Shown here: piece after piece, positions 2,309 to 23,085 of the stretch | Position numbering within the stretch: position 1 is the stretch's first letter | How the letters are laid out: every line of letters begins with the position of its first letter | Source: a virus | Length of the DNA: 23,085 nt | Reading direction: 5' to 3' (one strand) | IMG/VR virus record: IMGVR_UViG_3300029892_000093 | Span: 1-23,085 of that record | Made by a program: the position numbers and the translations under genes | The notes under the pieces: generated by a model | The model's database searches: none | What the model was told of the DNA's origin: nothing | Seen by the model: only the letters and a program-made list of their open reading frames with translations

Positions 2309-2875
2309 TCACCCGATTGATGGGGAGAAGTTGAACACGGCGAATTCGCCGTGAAGGCAAGCCGCTGCTTTATCATACGCACGCGCCGCTTCAATCTCTG
2401 TTGCAAAACATCCGAGTTCGATTTGCTGACCCCCGGCTCTGATGCGGGCTCTGTAACGGGTTAGTCTCCCGCGTTTGCGGGTGGACACCCCCTTGTATTT
2501 CGAACTGCCTAGTTTGGGGTGGCAGTTACGCTTATTTTCAGCGTTTGTCGCCTCGCGAAGATTTGCAATACGATTGTCGGCTTTGTCGCGATTGATGTGG
2601 TCTATCGGTAGTGATGGCCAGTTTCCGTAGTAAATTAGCCATGCCACTCGATGGGCTGGATATTGGGCTCCATCAATATTAAGTTGTCGATAGCCTTCAT
2701 CGGTAATTCTCCCTGCGATTTCGCCAACGAGATATTTCTTCATTCGTGGGCTGCTACGCTTAATCCAATGAAACAAACCTGTCTCGGGGTCATAATGAAG
2801 CAGTTCCATCACACGCCCACGCGATGGCAGAGCTTTACGGCGGTCGGGCGTGGGGATAGCGTCGGTGCCGGTCAT
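2309..2875 (-). CDS. HNH-AP2 free-standing homing endonuclease
   Basis: 188 aa. The N-terminal half holds an HNH nuclease core: H75 in AHRVAWLIYYG, the IDH motif at 91-93, and asparagines near 101-105 followed by REATNAENKRN. An AP2 DNA-binding domain follows at about 127-183 (YKGVSTRKRG..., then ELGCFATEIEAARAYDKAA). This two-domain layout is standard for selfish phage homing endonucleases, which cut an allele lacking the insertion so that it is repaired from the donor copy. A GAGG lies seven bases before the ATG. The gene faces the structural genes and ends one base from the tail gene stop. Sampled lines in it are about 45-50% GC, clearly below the surrounding late genes, which fits recent transfer. 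No intron features were recognised, so it is called free-standing. Confidence 0.9.
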   Translation of the reverse strand: MTGTDAIPTPDRRKALPSRGRVMELLHYDPETGLFHWIKRSSPRMKKYLVGEIAGRITDEGYRQLNIDGAQYPAHRVAWLIYYGNWPSLPIDHINRDKADNRIANLREATNAENKRNCHPKLGSSKYKGVSTRKRGRLTRYRARIRAGGQQIELGCFATEIEAARAYDKAAACLHGEFAVFNFSPSIG

Positions 2876-13642: not shown

Positions 13643-14518
13643 CTATACCGTAGCCGGTGCATCCACTGTCAGCAGTTTCGGCAGATCAATTCTCCGGGCA
13701 ATTTGCTTGCGGTAGGGGAGAATGGCGTCAGCATATTGCCCGGTGGGTTGCCTTTCTCGCACGGGCGCCAACTTGGTTATATCTTCGGAGTAGCCGAACA
13801 TCTCGAAATCGCGCCTGAACGTTGAGAAGATGAGGCCGGCCGTCTCGTCGTCGTAGTACTCAAGCAGACTGTCGGAGGCATTAGTTTGGTGCGCTGGAGG
13901 TTTAGACATCGCTTTGAATGACAGTCCAAGGGTGTTGGCTAGGTGTAGTTTGGCTTCCTCAAAATGTTCGACATGACCGATATAGTCATAATCGAAAAAA
14001 TCCGCCGCCAACTTGTATGTCTGTCCAGACCAATGCAGGTCGCGTTGTGAATCGGGCGCGCTGCAAACCATTCTTGCAAATTCCGAGAATGAAGACGGCG
14101 CTGATGGCAGGCAAAATTTCGCAAGGCGGGCCTCTGTGAGAGGCGGTCCATTCAATATCTTGTCTTTGTAGCCAGACAGAAGCCGAGAATATGGATTACG
14201 AACTATCGAAAATTTATACAGGCCGCGTGCGGATGTCATATCGTAGATGAATTGGCCAAAATCCTTGCGTTGATAATGGTCCCATGGAGTTGGCTCCAGG
14301 CCGGCGGTTTTCTTCCAACCGAAATTATGCACCATGAAGTACTGTTTCGGGATTGGGGGCTTATAGCCATCCGCGCGATGCGCCTGCCACAACATTCGCT
14401 TTACTTCTGTGTTGGCGCACTTTCCCAAGGGGACATACAAGTATCCGAGTGAATAAGACCGAACAATATCACGAAGAAGCTCGAAAATATTCTTCCTGCT
14501 GAGCGGCGAAGCGTCCAT
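13643..14518 (-). CDS. carbohydrate sulfotransferase (sulfotransferase family 2 type)
   Basis: 291 aa. The ATG at 14518 is preferred because GGGAG lies upstream; the frame extends to 14593 without a better site. The two PAPS-binding motifs are visible: the 5'-phosphosulfate loop YVPLGKCANTEVKRML (residues ~28-43, K33) and the 3'-phosphate motif FSIVRNPYSRLLSGYKDK (~103-120, R107, S111). These define enzymes that transfer sulfate from PAPS to a sugar hydroxyl; this sub-type includes the HNK-1/chondroitin 4-O group. The gene is antisense to all neighbours, lies tail-to-tail eight bases from the tailspike stop, and sampled 60-base lines in it are about 37-48% GC against 60% or more around it. 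It is therefore a likely accessory (moron) gene acquired from elsewhere. The substrate is unknown; host surface polysaccharide is the natural guess. Confidence 0.82.
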   Translation of the reverse strand: MDASPLSRKNIFELLRDIVRSYSLGYLYVPLGKCANTEVKRMLWQAHRADGYKPPIPKQYFMVHNFGWKKTAGLEPTPWDHYQRKDFGQFIYDMTSARGLYKFSIVRNPYSRLLSGYKDKILNGPPLTEARLAKFCLPSAPSSFSEFARMVCSAPDSQRDLHWSGQTYKLAADFFDYDYIGHVEHFEEAKLHLANTLGLSFKAMSKPPAHQTNASDSLLEYYDDETAGLIFSTFRRDFEMFGYSEDITKLAPVRERQPTGQYADAILPYRKQIARRIDLPKLLTVDAPATV

Positions 14519-16303: not shown

Positions 16304-16702
16304 ATGATCGCCTTCCGCCTGTCCCTCGTTCTCGCCGCCATCGTCATCGCATGGGCTATCGTCCGGCCCGCTGGAGCGGATGTACCGCTGCCGAGGCCGA
16401 ACCCGTTCAACGTCAGCGCGTGCACCGATCTGGACGAGGCACGCGCGTTCAACCGCACCCTCCCGGCTCATATCCGCGTCGTCAGCATGTCGGGAATCGA
16501 GGCGGACGCCTTCATCGCGGCGTTCAACGAGGTTCCGCCCGAGACGACCTACCGGGGCGACACGGTGTTCGCGCTCTCGATGGGCCAGTCGGACGTGTAT
16601 CTGGCGTTTTTCGAGGGCCAGTGCCTCACGATGTCGGGCGCGGTCATGAAGCGCGACCTGTTCTTTCAGACGCTCGCCCGCGCACAGGCGTCCATCTCAT
16701 GA
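16304..16702 (+). CDS. secreted protein, first gene of ExbBD-like cassette
   Basis: 132 aa from the ATG at 16304, which follows AGGAGG by six bases. The N-terminus is a good signal peptide: MIAFRLSLVLAAIVIAWAIV then RPAGADVP, with cleavage likely after Gly-Ala near residue 25. The mature part is about 105 residues with two cysteines (SACTDLDEA and EGQCLTMSG) that could form a disulfide. A periplasmic location is therefore likely. I do not recognise the fold or family. The stop overlaps the next gene as ATGA. As the first gene of a unit whose next two genes resemble a proton-channel pair, it may be a periplasmic partner or effector of that channel. Confidence 0.75.
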   Translation: MIAFRLSLVLAAIVIAWAIVRPAGADVPLPRPNPFNVSACTDLDEARAFNRTLPAHIRVVSMSGIEADAFIAAFNEVPPETTYRGDTVFALSMGQSDVYLAFFEGQCLTMSGAVMKRDLFFQTLARAQASIS

Positions 16703-17100
16703 GCGCACGTACACGCCTGTCGTGGTACACCGTCGCCTGCCTGTCTCTCTTGCTGACGGCTGTCGGCGCGGCGGCTTTCGGGGACATGATTCTCGCCGCA
16801 GACAAGACCTATCTGACGGTCGGAATCACGGCAGTCTACGCGCTGATGACCATCTGGATTGGCTGGGCGATCCACACGGGTCGCCAGCCGCCCGTCTACT
16901 GGGCTGAGTACGTCAGCGATGTTCTGCCGAAGGCGGGGCTCCTTGGCACGGTGATCGGCCTGATCTTAATGTTCATGGCTGCCGGCGACGACACGGCGAG
17001 CCTGTTCGGCCTTGCAACCGCGTTCTTCACGACAGCGGCGGGCATGGTAACCGCTGCGGCGCTCGATCTCCAAATCAGGATCATCGGGGCCGATGCTTAG
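16699..17100 (+). CDS. mini ExbB/TolQ/MotA-like membrane protein
   Basis: 133 aa, starting by ATGA overlap. Four hydrophobic segments are seen: about 10-32, 38-60, 79-95 and 103-122. The last two carry motifs of the MotA/TolQ/ExbB family: LPKAGLLGTVIGLILMF (76-92; the family has GLLGTV.GMI) and ATAFFTTAAGMVTAAALD (106-123; the family has AL.TTA.GL..AI). The threonines at 84 and 111-112 fall where the channel-lining threonines lie in ExbB/TolQ. In known systems this subunit forms a pentamer around the single TM of an ExbD/TolR partner and conducts protons to do work in the periplasm. At 133 aa it is much shorter than ExbB or TolQ (over 220) and lacks the large cytoplasmic loop. The partner candidate is the next gene. 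Confidence 0.65.
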   Translation: MSARTRLSWYTVACLSLLLTAVGAAAFGDMILAADKTYLTVGITAVYALMTIWIGWAIHTGRQPPVYWAEYVSDVLPKAGLLGTVIGLILMFMAAGDDTASLFGLATAFFTTAAGMVTAAALDLQIRIIGADA

Positions 17101-17659
17101 GCGCGGGCTGTCCGTCAGCTTTCTCGACGTCGTGCTGATCCTGCTGGCGTGCGTGATCTACCTGACGATGCCGAAGCAGCCGGCTCGCACATCCGGCATT
17201 GAAAATCCCGCAGAATTTCTCGTCGAGCTTCAGTGGGACGACCAATCCTGTTCCGACATAGACCTGTGGTTCCGAACGCCGTCTGGGGCAAAGGTCTGGT
17301 TTTCGTCGAAGCAAGCCGGGGTCTATTCATTGGATCGGGATGACTTGGGGTGCATGAACGACACCGTGACCGATCCTGACGGCACCTGGCGCGTCGTCCG
17401 GATCAATCGCGAAGTCCTCACCATGCGGGGATGGGAAGCCGGGCGGTACGTCGTCAACGTTCACGCCTATACGTTCAAGGACGCGGCGCCGGTCAACGTC
17501 ACGGTCCGCATGATCCGCCTCAATCCGTTCAAGGAAGAATGGACGCGGCAGGTCCAGATCGAGATGCAGGGGCAAGAGACCACTATAGCCAGCTTCGCCC
17601 TTGATGCACAAGGAAATATCGGGGGGATCGAAACCAGTTTCGTGAGGTTGACGCGATGA
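17093..17659 (+). CDS. ExbD/TolR-like single-TM protein with periplasmic beta domain
   Basis: 188 aa; overlaps the preceding gene by eight bases. A short basic N-terminus (MLRRG) precedes one TM, SVSFLDVVLILLACVIYLTM (7-26), that mirrors the ExbD/TolR/MotB segment (P.VDVMLVLLI.FM), including the essential intramembrane Asp, here D12. The rest is not the usual ExbD periplasmic fold. It is a ~155-residue Cys-containing, beta-rich domain with DIDLWFRTPSGAKVWF, MNDTVTDPDGTWRVVRIN and GRYVVNVHAYTF, reminiscent of DUF2135-like 'DvDL...P.G' domains. N-in/C-out topology would place it in the periplasm. With the preceding gene it would form a PMF-driven stator-type complex; what its periplasmic domain touches is unknown. 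Confidence 0.65.
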   Translation: MLRRGLSVSFLDVVLILLACVIYLTMPKQPARTSGIENPAEFLVELQWDDQSCSDIDLWFRTPSGAKVWFSSKQAGVYSLDRDDLGCMNDTVTDPDGTWRVVRINREVLTMRGWEAGRYVVNVHAYTFKDAAPVNVTVRMIRLNPFKEEWTRQVQIEMQGQETTIASFALDAQGNIGGIETSFVRLTR

Positions 17660-18090
17660 TCCTCGCCATCACCATTGCCGCCGTTCTCGTCTCGATCTTC
17701 CTGATCGCGGTCGCCATCCGGACGTTCCAACGAGAGCGGTGGGCGCTCTACATCGTCATCCCCGCGCTGCTGGCGTTTGCTGCCGGTTCAGGCCACGCCA
17801 TCAACGCCATGCTCGGCTATCCGACCGGCGACCTCTCGGATTTGCAGTACAGATTCCTGTACATGCACCATTCCGGTGAAGATCCGGTGTTCCTCTTGGC
17901 GGTTCCCGAGGGCGCCAATGCGCCCCGGCTGTACCGTATCCCCGCTCACCTTCTGAACGAGCAATCCCGTCGTGGCTTTGCCGATGCAGAGGCGAAGGCG
18001 GCGAAAAACGTGCCCGTCGTGGGCTCGTTCGCGGAAGGCGAATTCGTCCAGCACGACATTCGCGCCGACGGCCTTCCGCCGAAGAACTGA
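17656..18090 (+). CDS. two-TM protein, last gene of the ExbBD-like cassette
   Basis: 144 aa, starting by ATGA overlap with the preceding stop. Two N-terminal hydrophobic segments, about 2-22 (ILAITIAAVLVSIFLIAVAI) and 31-53 (ALYIVIPALLAFAAGSG), are followed by a soluble ~90-residue domain with LQYRFLYMHHSGEDPVFLLA and APRLYRIPAHLLNEQSRRGF. Similar short phage proteins with an 'RLYRIP' type segment may exist in T7-like marine and rhizobial phages, but I cannot name a family with certainty. Its tight coupling to the channel-like pair argues for a shared function in the envelope. Thirty bases separate it from the phosphoesterase gene. Confidence 0.6.
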   Translation: MILAITIAAVLVSIFLIAVAIRTFQRERWALYIVIPALLAFAAGSGHAINAMLGYPTGDLSDLQYRFLYMHHSGEDPVFLLAVPEGANAPRLYRIPAHLLNEQSRRGFADAEAKAAKNVPVVGSFAEGEFVQHDIRADGLPPKN

Positions 18091-18120: not shown

Positions 18121-19374
18121 ATGGCCCACGGCCGGCACTATACAGATGCCGAGCGCCGAGACATGTGGCGTGCGCTCGCCGAAACCAACGAATCCCTCGA
18201 AAAGCTCGGCGCTCGACTAGGCATCCGCAGCAATACGCTATCCAAGGAGCGTAAGCGGCTTGTCCGGGCTGGATACGAGGCCCTGACAGCCGAACCGGAT
18301 CAACCGAAGTCCCCCACCGAAGAACGCCGCGAAGTCCATGACGCTGCCTACTGGCGACGCCGTGCTTCGGAAATGCAGCGGGCTCTTGCAAAAGCGGAGC
18401 ACGCCGTCGAGGAACTGGGAGGCATCCGCAATAACCCCGTCGAAATCCCCGAATGGATTACGGCGTCCAGAGACCGGACGCAGGGCAGGGCGGTCCTGCT
18501 CGGCATCCTGTCCGATCTCCATGTCGGCGAGGTCATAGACCCAGACGAAACCCTGAACATCAACGCCTACTCTCCCGAGATATTCCAGCGGCGCCTCAAG
18601 CGGTACATCGAAGCCGCGACCGATATCGGCCCAAGGTGGGCTGCGGATTGCAAGCTGGAGGGCTTCCTGCTGGTTCTGGGCGGGGATCTGATCTCCGGCG
18701 ACATCCACGAGGAACTGCTTCGCACCAATGCCCTGACGGCCAACGAACAGGTCCGGCTCGCGGTCTCCGAACTGACGGCGGGATGCAAGATACTGGCGAA
18801 AGCCTTCGGCCGCGTCCACGTCGTATCCGTACCCGGCAATCATGGCCGGCAGACGGCAAAGCCCACGGCCAAGCTCTATTCACGCCTGTCCTACGATACG
18901 CTCGCCGCGACGATGATCCGGGACAACCTTGAGGGTGACGCGCGGTTCACATGGCAGATCGCCAACGCCCGCGATGCACTGGTCCCTGTGCTGGGCAGGA
19001 CGATCCTGGTCACTCACGGCGATGGCGTCGGCACCAAGGGCGGGATGGGGTTCATCGGTCCTCAAGCCCCGATGGTCCGGGGCGGCAAACTGGTGACAAT
19101 CCAGCAGGCCAGCGCAGGAAGACCGCTCGATCTGCTTGTGGCGGGCCACTATCACGTCGCGAGCAATCCATCAGGGGCACTGTGGAACGGGTCGATGATC
19201 GGCGCCAGCGAGTATTCGACCGGGCTACGCTCGTCAACGGAACCTCCGGGGCAGTGGCTCGCTTTACTGCACTCTCGTTGGTTCTTGAGGGAGCGTGCGA
19301 TCATCGTACTGGAAGATCCTGTTGTGCCGGAGAAACCCAGAGTTAGGGTCCCCGCTGCGATTGCAGACGCCTAG
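18121..19374 (+). CDS. metallophosphoesterase with N-terminal HTH; 3' end replaced
   Basis: 417 aa from the ATG 18121 (AGGA ten bases upstream). Residues 8-52 look like a helix-turn-helix (YTDAERRDMW, then LEKLGARLGIRSNTLSKERK). From 124 comes a calcineurin-like phosphoesterase: SDLHVGE (D132, H134), LGGDLISGD (D189), PGNHGR (N240, H241), VTHGDG (H299), AGHYH (H343, H345), so the five-motif di-metal site is complete. Such phage proteins probably cleave a phosphodiester in nucleic acid or nucleotide; the substrate is unknown. The last ~50 codons change in style (cta, tta, tct, aga, agg) and overlap the antisense homing endonuclease by 32 bases. A second version of the same C-terminus lies at 20057-20149, beyond the endonuclease, so the native 3' end seems to have been exchanged during insertion. 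Confidence 0.85.
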   Translation: MAHGRHYTDAERRDMWRALAETNESLEKLGARLGIRSNTLSKERKRLVRAGYEALTAEPDQPKSPTEERREVHDAAYWRRRASEMQRALAKAEHAVEELGGIRNNPVEIPEWITASRDRTQGRAVLLGILSDLHVGEVIDPDETLNINAYSPEIFQRRLKRYIEAATDIGPRWAADCKLEGFLLVLGGDLISGDIHEELLRTNALTANEQVRLAVSELTAGCKILAKAFGRVHVVSVPGNHGRQTAKPTAKLYSRLSYDTLAATMIRDNLEGDARFTWQIANARDALVPVLGRTILVTHGDGVGTKGGMGFIGPQAPMVRGGKLVTIQQASAGRPLDLLVAGHYHVASNPSGALWNGSMIGASEYSTGLRSSTEPPGQWLALLHSRWFLRERAIIVLEDPVVPEKPRVRVPAAIADA

Positions 19375-20056
19375 TCCTCGACGCCCGTGTGGGCCCCATC
19401 CCGTTGGGGAGTTTCTGACGAGCGGGGGTCGTTGCGGCTCGCTCGGGGTCCCACCCCTCACGAATGCGCCGTGCGTAGGTCGAATTGGACACGCCGCATT
19501 CGTTCCTGATTTCGCAGATTAGCGTGCCGTCTCTAGCGCGCCGATTACGGCGGGTGTTGTGGGCCTGTTCCGTATGCGTGGCCCACCTGACGTTTCCCGG
19601 CTCATAGTTCCCGTTCATGTCGGGGAACCTGTCCAGCGAATGTGCCGACGACGGCTTCGGGCCGATATATTCGTAGAATGTACCGAAGTCATCACGCCAC
19701 TCTTGGCAGACTGTTATGCCTCTGCCGCCATAGTCGTGGTACGATTTATTCTTTGGGTTAAAGCATCTGTCTCGCATATGCTGCCAAGCGCGATACTCTG
19801 CCGTGACTGCATTCGAGCGCGCGCAGTCGTGTTTTGTAAATCTCGCCCGAGCCAACTCAACGGAAAGACACCCGCATGATCGACTCTTCCCGGATGTAAG
19901 ATTTGTTCCGTATACAGAAACCCGGTTCCCACAATCGCATATGCATAACCATTTTCTTTTCGCAGACCTTTCAATAACAGTCCATCTTCCAAAAACCCGA
20001 CCAGTCAAATCGTTACAGCGCGGCATGTGAAGCCTCACAGAGTGGATATAAAGAGT
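19297..20056. mobile_element. homing-endonuclease unit carrying a replacement 3' end
   Basis: The unit comprises the recoded end of the phosphoesterase gene (19297-19374), the antisense endonuclease gene (19343-20026) and a short spacer; the displaced native end begins at about 20057. Boundaries are approximate, set by where the two C-termini align (LEDP..PEKPRVR) on either side. Sampled lines are about 43-45% GC against 60% or more outside. Confidence 0.65.
19343..20026 (-). CDS. HNH-like homing endonuclease with Zn-ribbon and C-terminal HTH
   Basis: 227 aa from the ATG 20026, with GAGG eight bases upstream; the frame is open to 20170 but that part covers other genes. Domain order: a Cys ribbon at 28-53 (CICDCGN ... 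SCGCL), a nuclease core at ~78-164 with RAWQHMRDRCFNPKN, YHDYGGRGITVCQEW, HSLDRFPDMNGNYEPGNVRW and EQAHNTRRN, then a NUMOD-like HTH, CGVSNSTYARRIREGW, at 177-192. This family is common in phages as free-standing homing nucleases. The 3' end overlaps the phosphoesterase gene on the other strand by 32 bases, so the same DNA encodes both C-termini. The expected target is an uninvaded phosphoesterase gene 3' end, by inference. Confidence 0.85.
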   Translation of the reverse strand: MPRCNDLTGRVFGRWTVIERSAKRKWLCICDCGNRVSVYGTNLTSGKSRSCGCLSVELARARFTKHDCARSNAVTAEYRAWQHMRDRCFNPKNKSYHDYGGRGITVCQEWRDDFGTFYEYIGPKPSSAHSLDRFPDMNGNYEPGNVRWATHTEQAHNTRRNRRARDGTLICEIRNECGVSNSTYARRIREGWDPERAATTPARQKLPNGMGPTRASRTRRLQSQRGP

Positions 20057-20149
20057 ATGCCAAATACACACACGCTCATCAAGCTGGAAGACCCAGCCAC
20101 GCCAGAAAAGCCGCGCGTCCGGATCGCGGCAGGGATGGCCGAACGATGA
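20057..20149 (+). pseudogene. orphaned original C-terminus of the phosphoesterase gene
   Basis: Thirty codons in frame from the ATG 20057 to TGA 20147-20149 encode MPNTHTLIKLEDPATPEKPR followed by VRIAAGMAER. The living gene ends IIVLEDPVVPEKPRVR then VPAAIADA. Eleven of the 13 residues in the aligned block LEDPxxPEKPRVR are identical, but nine of those eleven use different synonymous codons. The TGA overlaps the next gene's ATG (ATGA), the spacing expected of an intact upstream gene in this operon, so this is likely the native end left behind by the endonuclease insertion. Whether it is translated is unknown; no clear ribosome site precedes 20057. Confidence 0.75.
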
Positions 20150-20547
20150 TCGACCATCTCCGCATTCCATCCGGCTACTGGTATCTCGCCAGTCCCTACA
20201 GCAAATACTATGCCGGGCTTCACGCCGCTTTCGAGGACATATGCCAGATCGCCGGCAAGTTGATCGCGCTCGGCGTCCCGGTCTACTCCCCGATCGCCCA
20301 TACCCACCCTGTCGCGATTCACAGCGGCATGGACCCGCTCGATCATGAGATATGGCTGCCGGCCGACAAGCCCATGTTCGAAGCCGCTCACGGGCTCATC
20401 GTAGCCCAGATGGACGGATGGGCTGACAGCTACGGGATCAAGGTCGAGATCGACTGGGCACGGGAAGCCGGCAAGCCGGTCCACTTCCTCCTGCCATCCG
20501 ATCTATCGGAAGAATTCGACGCGAGGCTTTCACATGAAAGCGCATGA
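20146..20547 (+). CDS. DUF1937 protein (nucleoside deoxyribosyltransferase-like)
   Basis: 133 aa. Recognisable elements are WYLASPYS near the N-terminus, VYSPIAHTHPVA, DHEIWLPADKPMFEAAHGLI, VAQMDGWADSYGIKVEIDWA and GKPVHFLLP, which together match DUF1937, a phage family with a nucleoside 2-deoxyribosyltransferase-like fold. Role in phage is unproven; nucleotide metabolism is the usual guess. The start overlaps the orphaned phosphoesterase end by ATGA, showing it was originally the next gene in that operon. The end overlaps the next gene by 14 bases. Confidence 0.85.
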   Translation: MIDHLRIPSGYWYLASPYSKYYAGLHAAFEDICQIAGKLIALGVPVYSPIAHTHPVAIHSGMDPLDHEIWLPADKPMFEAAHGLIVAQMDGWADSYGIKVEIDWAREAGKPVHFLLPSDLSEEFDARLSHESA

Positions 20548-22674: not shown

Positions 22675-22743
22675 TCACCGGGTGGCCTGTCTCGCCCGCG
22701 CGATAATGCCGAGCGCGATTTCCTCGTCCTGTCCGCGCATCAT
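22675..22743 (-). CDS. possible 22-aa mini-ORF between HNH and the small-gene array
   Basis: ATGATG at 22743 overlaps the HNH stop and encodes MMRGQDEEIALGIIARARQA followed by TR. Its stop lies 16 bases before the next start. The ribosome site is weak (GACGAG). It could be a real leader peptide or only a spacer. Confidence 0.35.
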   Translation of the reverse strand: MMRGQDEEIALGIIARARQATR

Positions 22744-23085
22744 TTGCGCTCGTCTGCCCAGACGGGCTCGCCGTTCATCCGACGCCAGCCCCGGAAGCCG
22801 CTTCGCTTGGGCTTGATGCCCAAATGCCGGGCCTTCACGCGGGCCGTTTTCGCCTTCTCGGCAACGTCCTCTGCATTCTTCGCTGGCAAGCACCAGTCAC
22901 AGGTGACGGATAGGTTCCGCTCGCGGTTCTCGCCGCCGTTGATCAGCGCCTTGACGTGCTCCAGGGTCCACCGCTCGCCGGCCGTGATCTTCCTTTGGCA
23001 CCGATGGCACCGGCCGCCCTCGCGCTCGAATACGCGTAGGCGCACGCGGGGCGGGACTGCCGTGTCCGGCGTCTTGCCCTGCCAT
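22740..23085 (-). CDS. HNH endonuclease, 5' end beyond the window
   Basis: The frame runs off the right edge (last complete codon ends at 23084), so the start is outside; the visible GTG 23045 is only an internal candidate. 114 residues are seen. The sequence reads WQGKTPDTAVPPRVRLRVFE, then RCHRCQRKITAGERWTLEHV, ALINGGENRERNLSVTCDWC and KNAEDVAEKAKTARVKARHL. Two CxxC pairs frame the HNH core with histidine in LEHV and asparagines in GGENRERNL. This is the McrA-like HNH type common in tailed phages of alphaproteobacteria, often near packaging genes where it may assist terminase. Its minus-strand context with early-type genes leaves role open. Confidence 0.85.
   Translation of the reverse strand, partial: WQGKTPDTAVPPRVRLRVFEREGGRCHRCQRKITAGERWTLEHVKALINGGENRERNLSVTCDWCLPAKNAEDVAEKAKTARVKARHLGIKPKRSGFRGWRRMNGEPVWADERK

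Follow-up and report, generated by a model that had tools for sequence, protein, structure and literature searches.

The window, by which we mean the whole stretch of 23,085 nucleotides analysed here, is the 23-kb record of an uncultivated virus, and it carries on its plus strand, at 18121-19374, a gene for a calcineurin-like phosphoesterase/exonuclease (phrog_284, E=8.5e-42, and alignment to relatives) whose C-terminus reads LRERAIIVLEDPVVPEKPRVRVPAAIADA before the stop. The last part of this gene (19261-19374), which differs from the remainder in codon adaptation and encodes a tail conserved in relatives, will be called the carried end. Overlapping it on the minus strand is a free-standing HNH homing-endonuclease-like gene of the phrog_374 family (19343-20026; E=5.3e-64, alignments, structural model with pLDDT 88.5), whose stop codon lies within the carried end; an AT-rich leader that runs from the endonuclease start and has no Rfam match occupies 20027-20068. 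Beyond the leader there is a second, codon-typical 3' end of the phosphoesterase (20075-20149, plus strand, LIKLEDPATPEKPRVRIAAGMAER followed by a stop), the stranded end, which overlaps through its stop a DUF1937 gene (20146-20547, plus strand; PF09152, E=1.5e-20) that directly follows the phosphoesterase in several endonuclease-free relatives.

Translation of 19309-19347 gives LEDPVVPEKPRVR and that of 20084-20122 gives LEDPATPEKPRVR, which are identical at 11 of 13 residues while using different codons at nine of these eleven, L and E alone sharing a codon. The orphan frame at 20057-20149 ends in a TGA stop that forms an ATGA overlap with the DUF1937 gene. These features, reported in an earlier note on this DNA, were all reproduced, and chance was excluded as their source, given that no other 13-mer in the six reading frames of the window agrees at more than 6/13 positions and that 300 codon-shuffled windows never exceeded 8/13. 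The block stands as that note described it, but the similarity is longer, comprising 14 of 23 residues (19303-19371 vs 20075-20143), and the homologous part of the carried end can be delimited as 19300-19374. The ATG at 20057 is probably accidental, with the homologous native stretch beginning near 20069-20075.

Relatives of the phosphoesterase in viral contigs were obtained by alignment scans; neither a single-protein scan of viral contigs with the phosphoesterase nor a scan of them with the pattern DPxxPEKPRVR gave any match, and a search of 289 bacterial genomes returned only two homologues, both distant. The nearest relatives, at 46-54% identity, share the conserved C-terminus WLALxHEKWGLRERVPVVLEDPxxPxRPRVRVPAGM, so that each of the two copies in the window represents a true version of a single conserved gene end; distant phage relatives lack this tail, their proteins stopping before it. 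Those relatives at 46-54% identity that lack this endonuclease have a single end of the form LEDPxxPxRPRVRVPAGM. In four endonuclease-free loci (L008, L016, L115 and L116) a single end is directly followed by DUF1937, and in the closest two, L115 and L116, the end is LLHSKWFLRERASIQLEAPSVPDKPKVRVPAGFRETADA, with a stop codon that shares bases with the DUF1937 start, which is the arrangement the earlier note had predicted for an empty site, namely the gene body joined directly to a native-type end. None of the endonuclease-free relatives found carries both ends, a combination that would have spoken against that proposal. No relative above 54% identity was found, and the left junction and the unrearranged native sequence of the window are not directly readable.

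The two ends differ in composition. Codon adaptation is 0.40 in the carried end (19261-19374), 0.665 in the rest of the gene, 0.676 in the stranded end and 0.496 in the endonuclease gene, and the GC content of the carried end and of the endonuclease is 0.56 vs 0.63 for the phosphoesterase gene. Because both are codon-atypical and less GC-rich than the gene, it is simplest to assume that carried end and endonuclease arrived together and that the stranded end is the original one; the final codons of the phosphoesterase gene appear to have been supplied by an invading unit. The cumulative codon-fit peak places the beginning of the atypical stretch at about 19220-19261, some 10-25 codons 5' of the duplicated block, as would be expected from co-conversion of flanking sequence. 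In the window the codon usage of the genome fits the stranded end only, and the two ends are about equally far from sequenced relatives, the carried one being not clearly nearer than the stranded one.

The endonuclease, of 227 amino acids, is homologous to phage HNH endonucleases (in addition to phrog_374, phrog_3377 with E=7.6e-44), and of the 600 matches to a pattern in viral contigs, 597 proved to be relatives. It is antisense to its target gene and interrupts neither flanking protein; its last ~20 codons, which overlap the carried end in antisense, are unconserved in relatives. A fold search with the model gave no significant match, and over the HNH region there is a weak sequence match to the I-HmuI type of HNH endonuclease (PDB 1U3E, E=0.24). 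The gene for I-HmuI resides in a group I intron, whereas no intron was detected with Rfam at the window endonuclease. A gene for an endonuclease lying between two pieces of one gene does recall intron-borne endonucleases, and a group I intron or another splicing element could be imagined to join the body to the stranded native end, the first end being an unspliced alternative. We regard this as extremely improbable, since the catalytic RNA core that characterizes group I introns was not found around the endonuclease gene (Rfam gave nothing in 18900-20400, even at E<=1, and nothing at the gathering threshold in ten such loci), the interval from the carried stop to the stranded end holds almost only the endonuclease gene, and the first end is already a complete conserved C-terminus.

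A related phosphoesterase locus, L012, has been entered by an endonuclease of another family. There, an antisense HNH-AP2 gene (phrog_99, E=5.6e-65) lies directly 3' of the phosphoesterase, which again has two ends, a fused one ending in LEDPILEGKRPRIRVPAGWHAT and, past the endonuclease, a stranded one ending in PPRRPRIRVPAGMSAAA that overlaps the next gene. Its sister L119 (85% amino acid identity overall) has no endonuclease at the phosphoesterase end and carries the stranded-type end only (LEDPEPPRRPRIRIPAGMSAAA, then stop), followed by a gene similar to the one that comes next in L012; the stranded end of L012 and the sole end of L119 are 83% identical in nucleotide sequence. For L012 the native end is clearly nearer to relatives than the carried one; codon usage fails to separate the two ends there. 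This filled/empty pair is the most direct evidence for the replacement of a gene end. In L119 (2760-3275) and L121 (3105-3620), both on the minus strand, an HNH-AP2 gene lies upstream of the phosphoesterase, possibly another end-associated insertion.

The same layout recurs at other genes. We screened 148 distinct viral loci with the window's endonuclease family for a C-terminus of the gene ending at the endonuclease that recurs, stop-anchored, on the far side of the endonuclease; swapped loci served as the null and a score of at least 45 defined a strong case. Seven loci were strong cases vs 0.34 expected, and the neighbouring genes whose ends are duplicated differ among them: besides the window, these are an ASCH-like gene in L213 (NPWVWVVSFHRM vs NPWVWVVEFKKL; ASCH-like is our own reading, Pfam giving no match), a DUF7484 gene in L305 (DKESYYRHIKLTSSGV vs DKESFYRHIKLTSSGV), a DNA ligase in L237, an SMC/SbcC-like ATPase in L288, a DnaB-like helicase in L106, where MPPAFEGF occurs twice, and L162, with NAFGIPMKAKP vs NAFGIEMKKKP. 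Five further loci (L160, L167, L177, L197 and L275) are plausible weaker candidates. Five of 633 non-endonuclease control genes from the same loci also scored at least 45, none of them genuinely: the two most protein-like matches reflect tandem paralogues (L201) and tandem endonucleases (L282), and the other three look like chance or low-complexity matches. Even with all five counted, endonuclease loci and controls differ (Fisher P=0.0026). An initial screen that was not stop-anchored had produced GC-rich low-complexity matches in L195, L161 and L216, and the stop-anchored screen was used instead.

An empty site could be identified for the helicase in Synechococcus phage Yong-M2-251, where a single end reading EDLPPAFEGFEGF before its stop adjoins a similar following gene, and homologues of the ligase and of the ASCH-like gene without an adjacent endonuclease have ends resembling the stranded copies. 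The layout is found in both orientations of the endonuclease; where the endonuclease is read in the sense direction, its start often falls within the carried stop codon and its end inside or right at the stranded end, so these cases appear to consist of a compact tail-plus-gene unit. Together with the endonuclease-free relatives and the L012/L119 pair, this recurrence bears out the proposal of the earlier note that insertion near the gene end brings in an end conserving the protein but different in DNA and leaves the native end stranded. In most relatives of the endonuclease no duplicated end is detectable, which indicates that the end swap is one mode of insertion and not the rule.

Twelve named phages carrying this endonuclease family were examined as well with a start-anchored screen, and in two of them the 5' end is swapped. 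In Xanthomonas phage LucasX (MW825358), MIVYEGPGNLFECGVQTITCS lies before and MIIYEGPGDLFSCGMQCITCS after the endonuclease, the same codon being used at 3 of 15 shared residues; in Lactobacillus phage Lb (MG020111), the gene is that of a single-stranded-DNA-binding protein, with MINRVVLTGRLTKDIELR and a stop before the endonuclease and MINNVTLTGRLGKDVELK after it. Homologues of these mirror-case genes without an adjacent endonuclease exist, and these two phages, taken with the 3' cases, imply that either gene end is exchangeable. In the LucasX locus (L327, 1822-2759) an annotated intrinsic terminator separates the endonuclease gene from the stranded 5' end, so that the mobile element may in addition affect how the invaded gene is transcribed. 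Since the window is a 23 kb record of an uncultivated virus, an assembly artefact in which a metagenome contig joins two phage strains was considered; it is hardly credible given the same architecture in independent contigs, its mirror image in the two isolate genomes and the intact operon downstream.

It was then asked how far the carried ends are recoded or merely foreign. In the window, codons differ at 11 of 14 shared degenerate residues. Pooling ten 3' cases, with the weaker candidates L160, L167 and L177 included, the same codon is used at 29 of 102 shared degenerate residues, against 42.4 expected from own usage and 36.8 at saturation with the codon usage of the endonucleases (z=-1.70). 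The rate is lower than in homologous gene bodies at about 50% identity (0.41-0.48, about 0.45; P=0.0004). Local codon fit is poorer in the carried than in the stranded end in nine of the ten cases (paired Wilcoxon P=0.002), L106 being a case in which codon usage does not favour the stranded end. The pooled codon z of the carried ends is -5.3; ordinary gene tails (n=858) are also atypical (mean -0.68), and the comparison of the two gives P=0.012. The difference in spelling, at or slightly beyond saturation, is therefore compatible with a diverged donor, which may suffice, with a hint of extra divergence. The flanking of the insert by two homologous ends might also suggest that the 3' end was first duplicated locally, that the copies then drifted apart and that the endonuclease entered between them later. 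We consider this very improbable, because the codons at the window ends differ more than in gene bodies of ~50% identity while the protein is kept, because two-ended relatives without the endonuclease were not found and because control genes lack such end duplications.

A stronger alternative is that the arrangement stems from one-off recombination, the endonuclease having resided just past the homologous stop in a diverged phage, so that one crossover in the gene body and an illegitimate one transferred it, and the foreign end hitch-hiked with no protective role. The foreign-looking codon usage of the carried ends agrees with this, as does a same-codon count only marginally below the saturation expectation. 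The layout, however, occurs at seven or more genes, with the endonuclease in either orientation, and also at 5' ends; two endonuclease families have used it at one gene, and the sense-oriented cases form compact tail-plus-gene units, and hence we find simple hitch-hiking rather unlikely. It is, by comparison, highly probable that the interval between about 19261 and about 20068 constitutes one mobile unit, composed of a replacement 3' end and an antisense HNH homing endonuclease gene and recurrent in phages, and, as part of the same joint assessment, that the layout at other genes represents a recurrent lifestyle of phage HNH endonucleases that settle at the ends of genes with neither intron nor intein.

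We postulate that such a unit would spread as follows. The endonuclease would cut the uninvaded gene near codons 392-394, close to the start of the stranded end, and an invaded genome would then serve as template for repairing the break, the homology arms being the gene body to one side and the native tail plus DUF1937 to the other. The expected product, body, carried tail, endonuclease gene and stranded native tail, corresponds to the anatomy seen in the window. The carried tail keeps the conserved C-terminus, and since its DNA spelling differs the cut joint would not be rebuilt, which would make the invaded allele immune. Insertion alone would break the target, but a carried end with the original DNA sequence would re-create it; what is needed is an end that gives back the protein and not the DNA. 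The carried tail, together with the endonuclease, most likely originated at a diverged homologue of the gene. A more general proposition is that there is a class of phage HNH elements in which a 3' or 5' end, divergent through selection, works as a component of the element, keeps the target protein intact, makes the joint uncuttable and takes the role of an intron or intein; this we put forward tentatively, rating its chances somewhat below even.

The strategy differs from that of an intron or intein, as the earlier note had held, there being no intron RNA, but it is not unprecedented. In fungal mitochondrial mobile ORFs, an endonuclease near the 3' end brings a foreign, mostly synonymous, in-frame end, and the native end lies downstream; cases are atp6 of Allomyces macrogynus, atp6, atp9, cox2 and nad3 of Glomus sp., atp9 of Rhizopus oryzae and cox2 of Mortierella verticillata (PMC3630166). 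As in the Allomyces atp6 type, the invaded gene of the window continues in frame into a foreign end, and a native end is stranded beyond the endonuclease (20075-20149; likewise in L012). Unlike the fungal elements, which encode LAGLIDADG or GIY-YIG enzymes in mitochondria, those described here encode HNH enzymes, reside in dense phage operons in either orientation and swap 5' ends too. Free-standing phage homing endonucleases such as the T4 seg and mob genes (PMC2988022) and F-CphI of cyanophage S-PM2 (PMC6083498) are described as intergenic; the window element resembles them in having its own endonuclease gene beside a likely target, and in the mode of spread proposed here, break repair accompanied by co-conversion of the flanks. 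A duplicated target-gene end was not found in the relevant sections of the account of free-standing phage endonucleases (PMC2988022), nor was a phage case of end replacement in a limited search of openly accessible literature that took in relevant parts of reviews and surveys (PMC2988022, PMC10448857, PMC12724721). The window element shares the working principle of the fungal mobile ORFs and not their family.

Other genes of the window merit mention. A second endonuclease gene (2309-2875, minus strand; HNH_3 + AP2, phrog_99) lies antisense just past a tail protein gene (76-2307); the unanchored screen (score 52) revealed no duplicated gene end there, and its phrog_99 relative is the invader of the L012 phosphoesterase end. 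A short HNH endonuclease gene (22740-23045, minus strand; PF01844, phrog_333), of a kind often adjoining terminase genes, is found at the record end. A sulfotransferase gene (13643-14518, minus strand; PF03567, E=9e-20) with a GC content of 0.51 vs 0.63 follows a beta-helix tail-fibre-like gene and is possibly a recent acquisition. The small membrane operon at 16699-18090, an unusual phage cargo, encodes a MotA/TolQ/ExbB proton-channel protein (PF01618) weakly resembling ZorA of Zorya, and then two uncharacterised, probably membrane-anchored proteins.

A homing endonuclease that inserts into coding sequence has to spare the gene it enters, and introns and inteins are the textbook answers to this problem. 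A synonymous gene end brought along by the endonuclease is a third answer, for which a few fungal mitochondrial genes provide the known examples. Should this answer prove common in phages (the endonuclease family studied here gives a lower bound of ~5%), it would explain short stranded fragments beside HNH genes as well as local mosaic structure where genes end, and it may cause mis-annotated starts and stops. As the paired ends mark the likely cleavage site of each endonuclease, target sites would become predictable from sequence alone.
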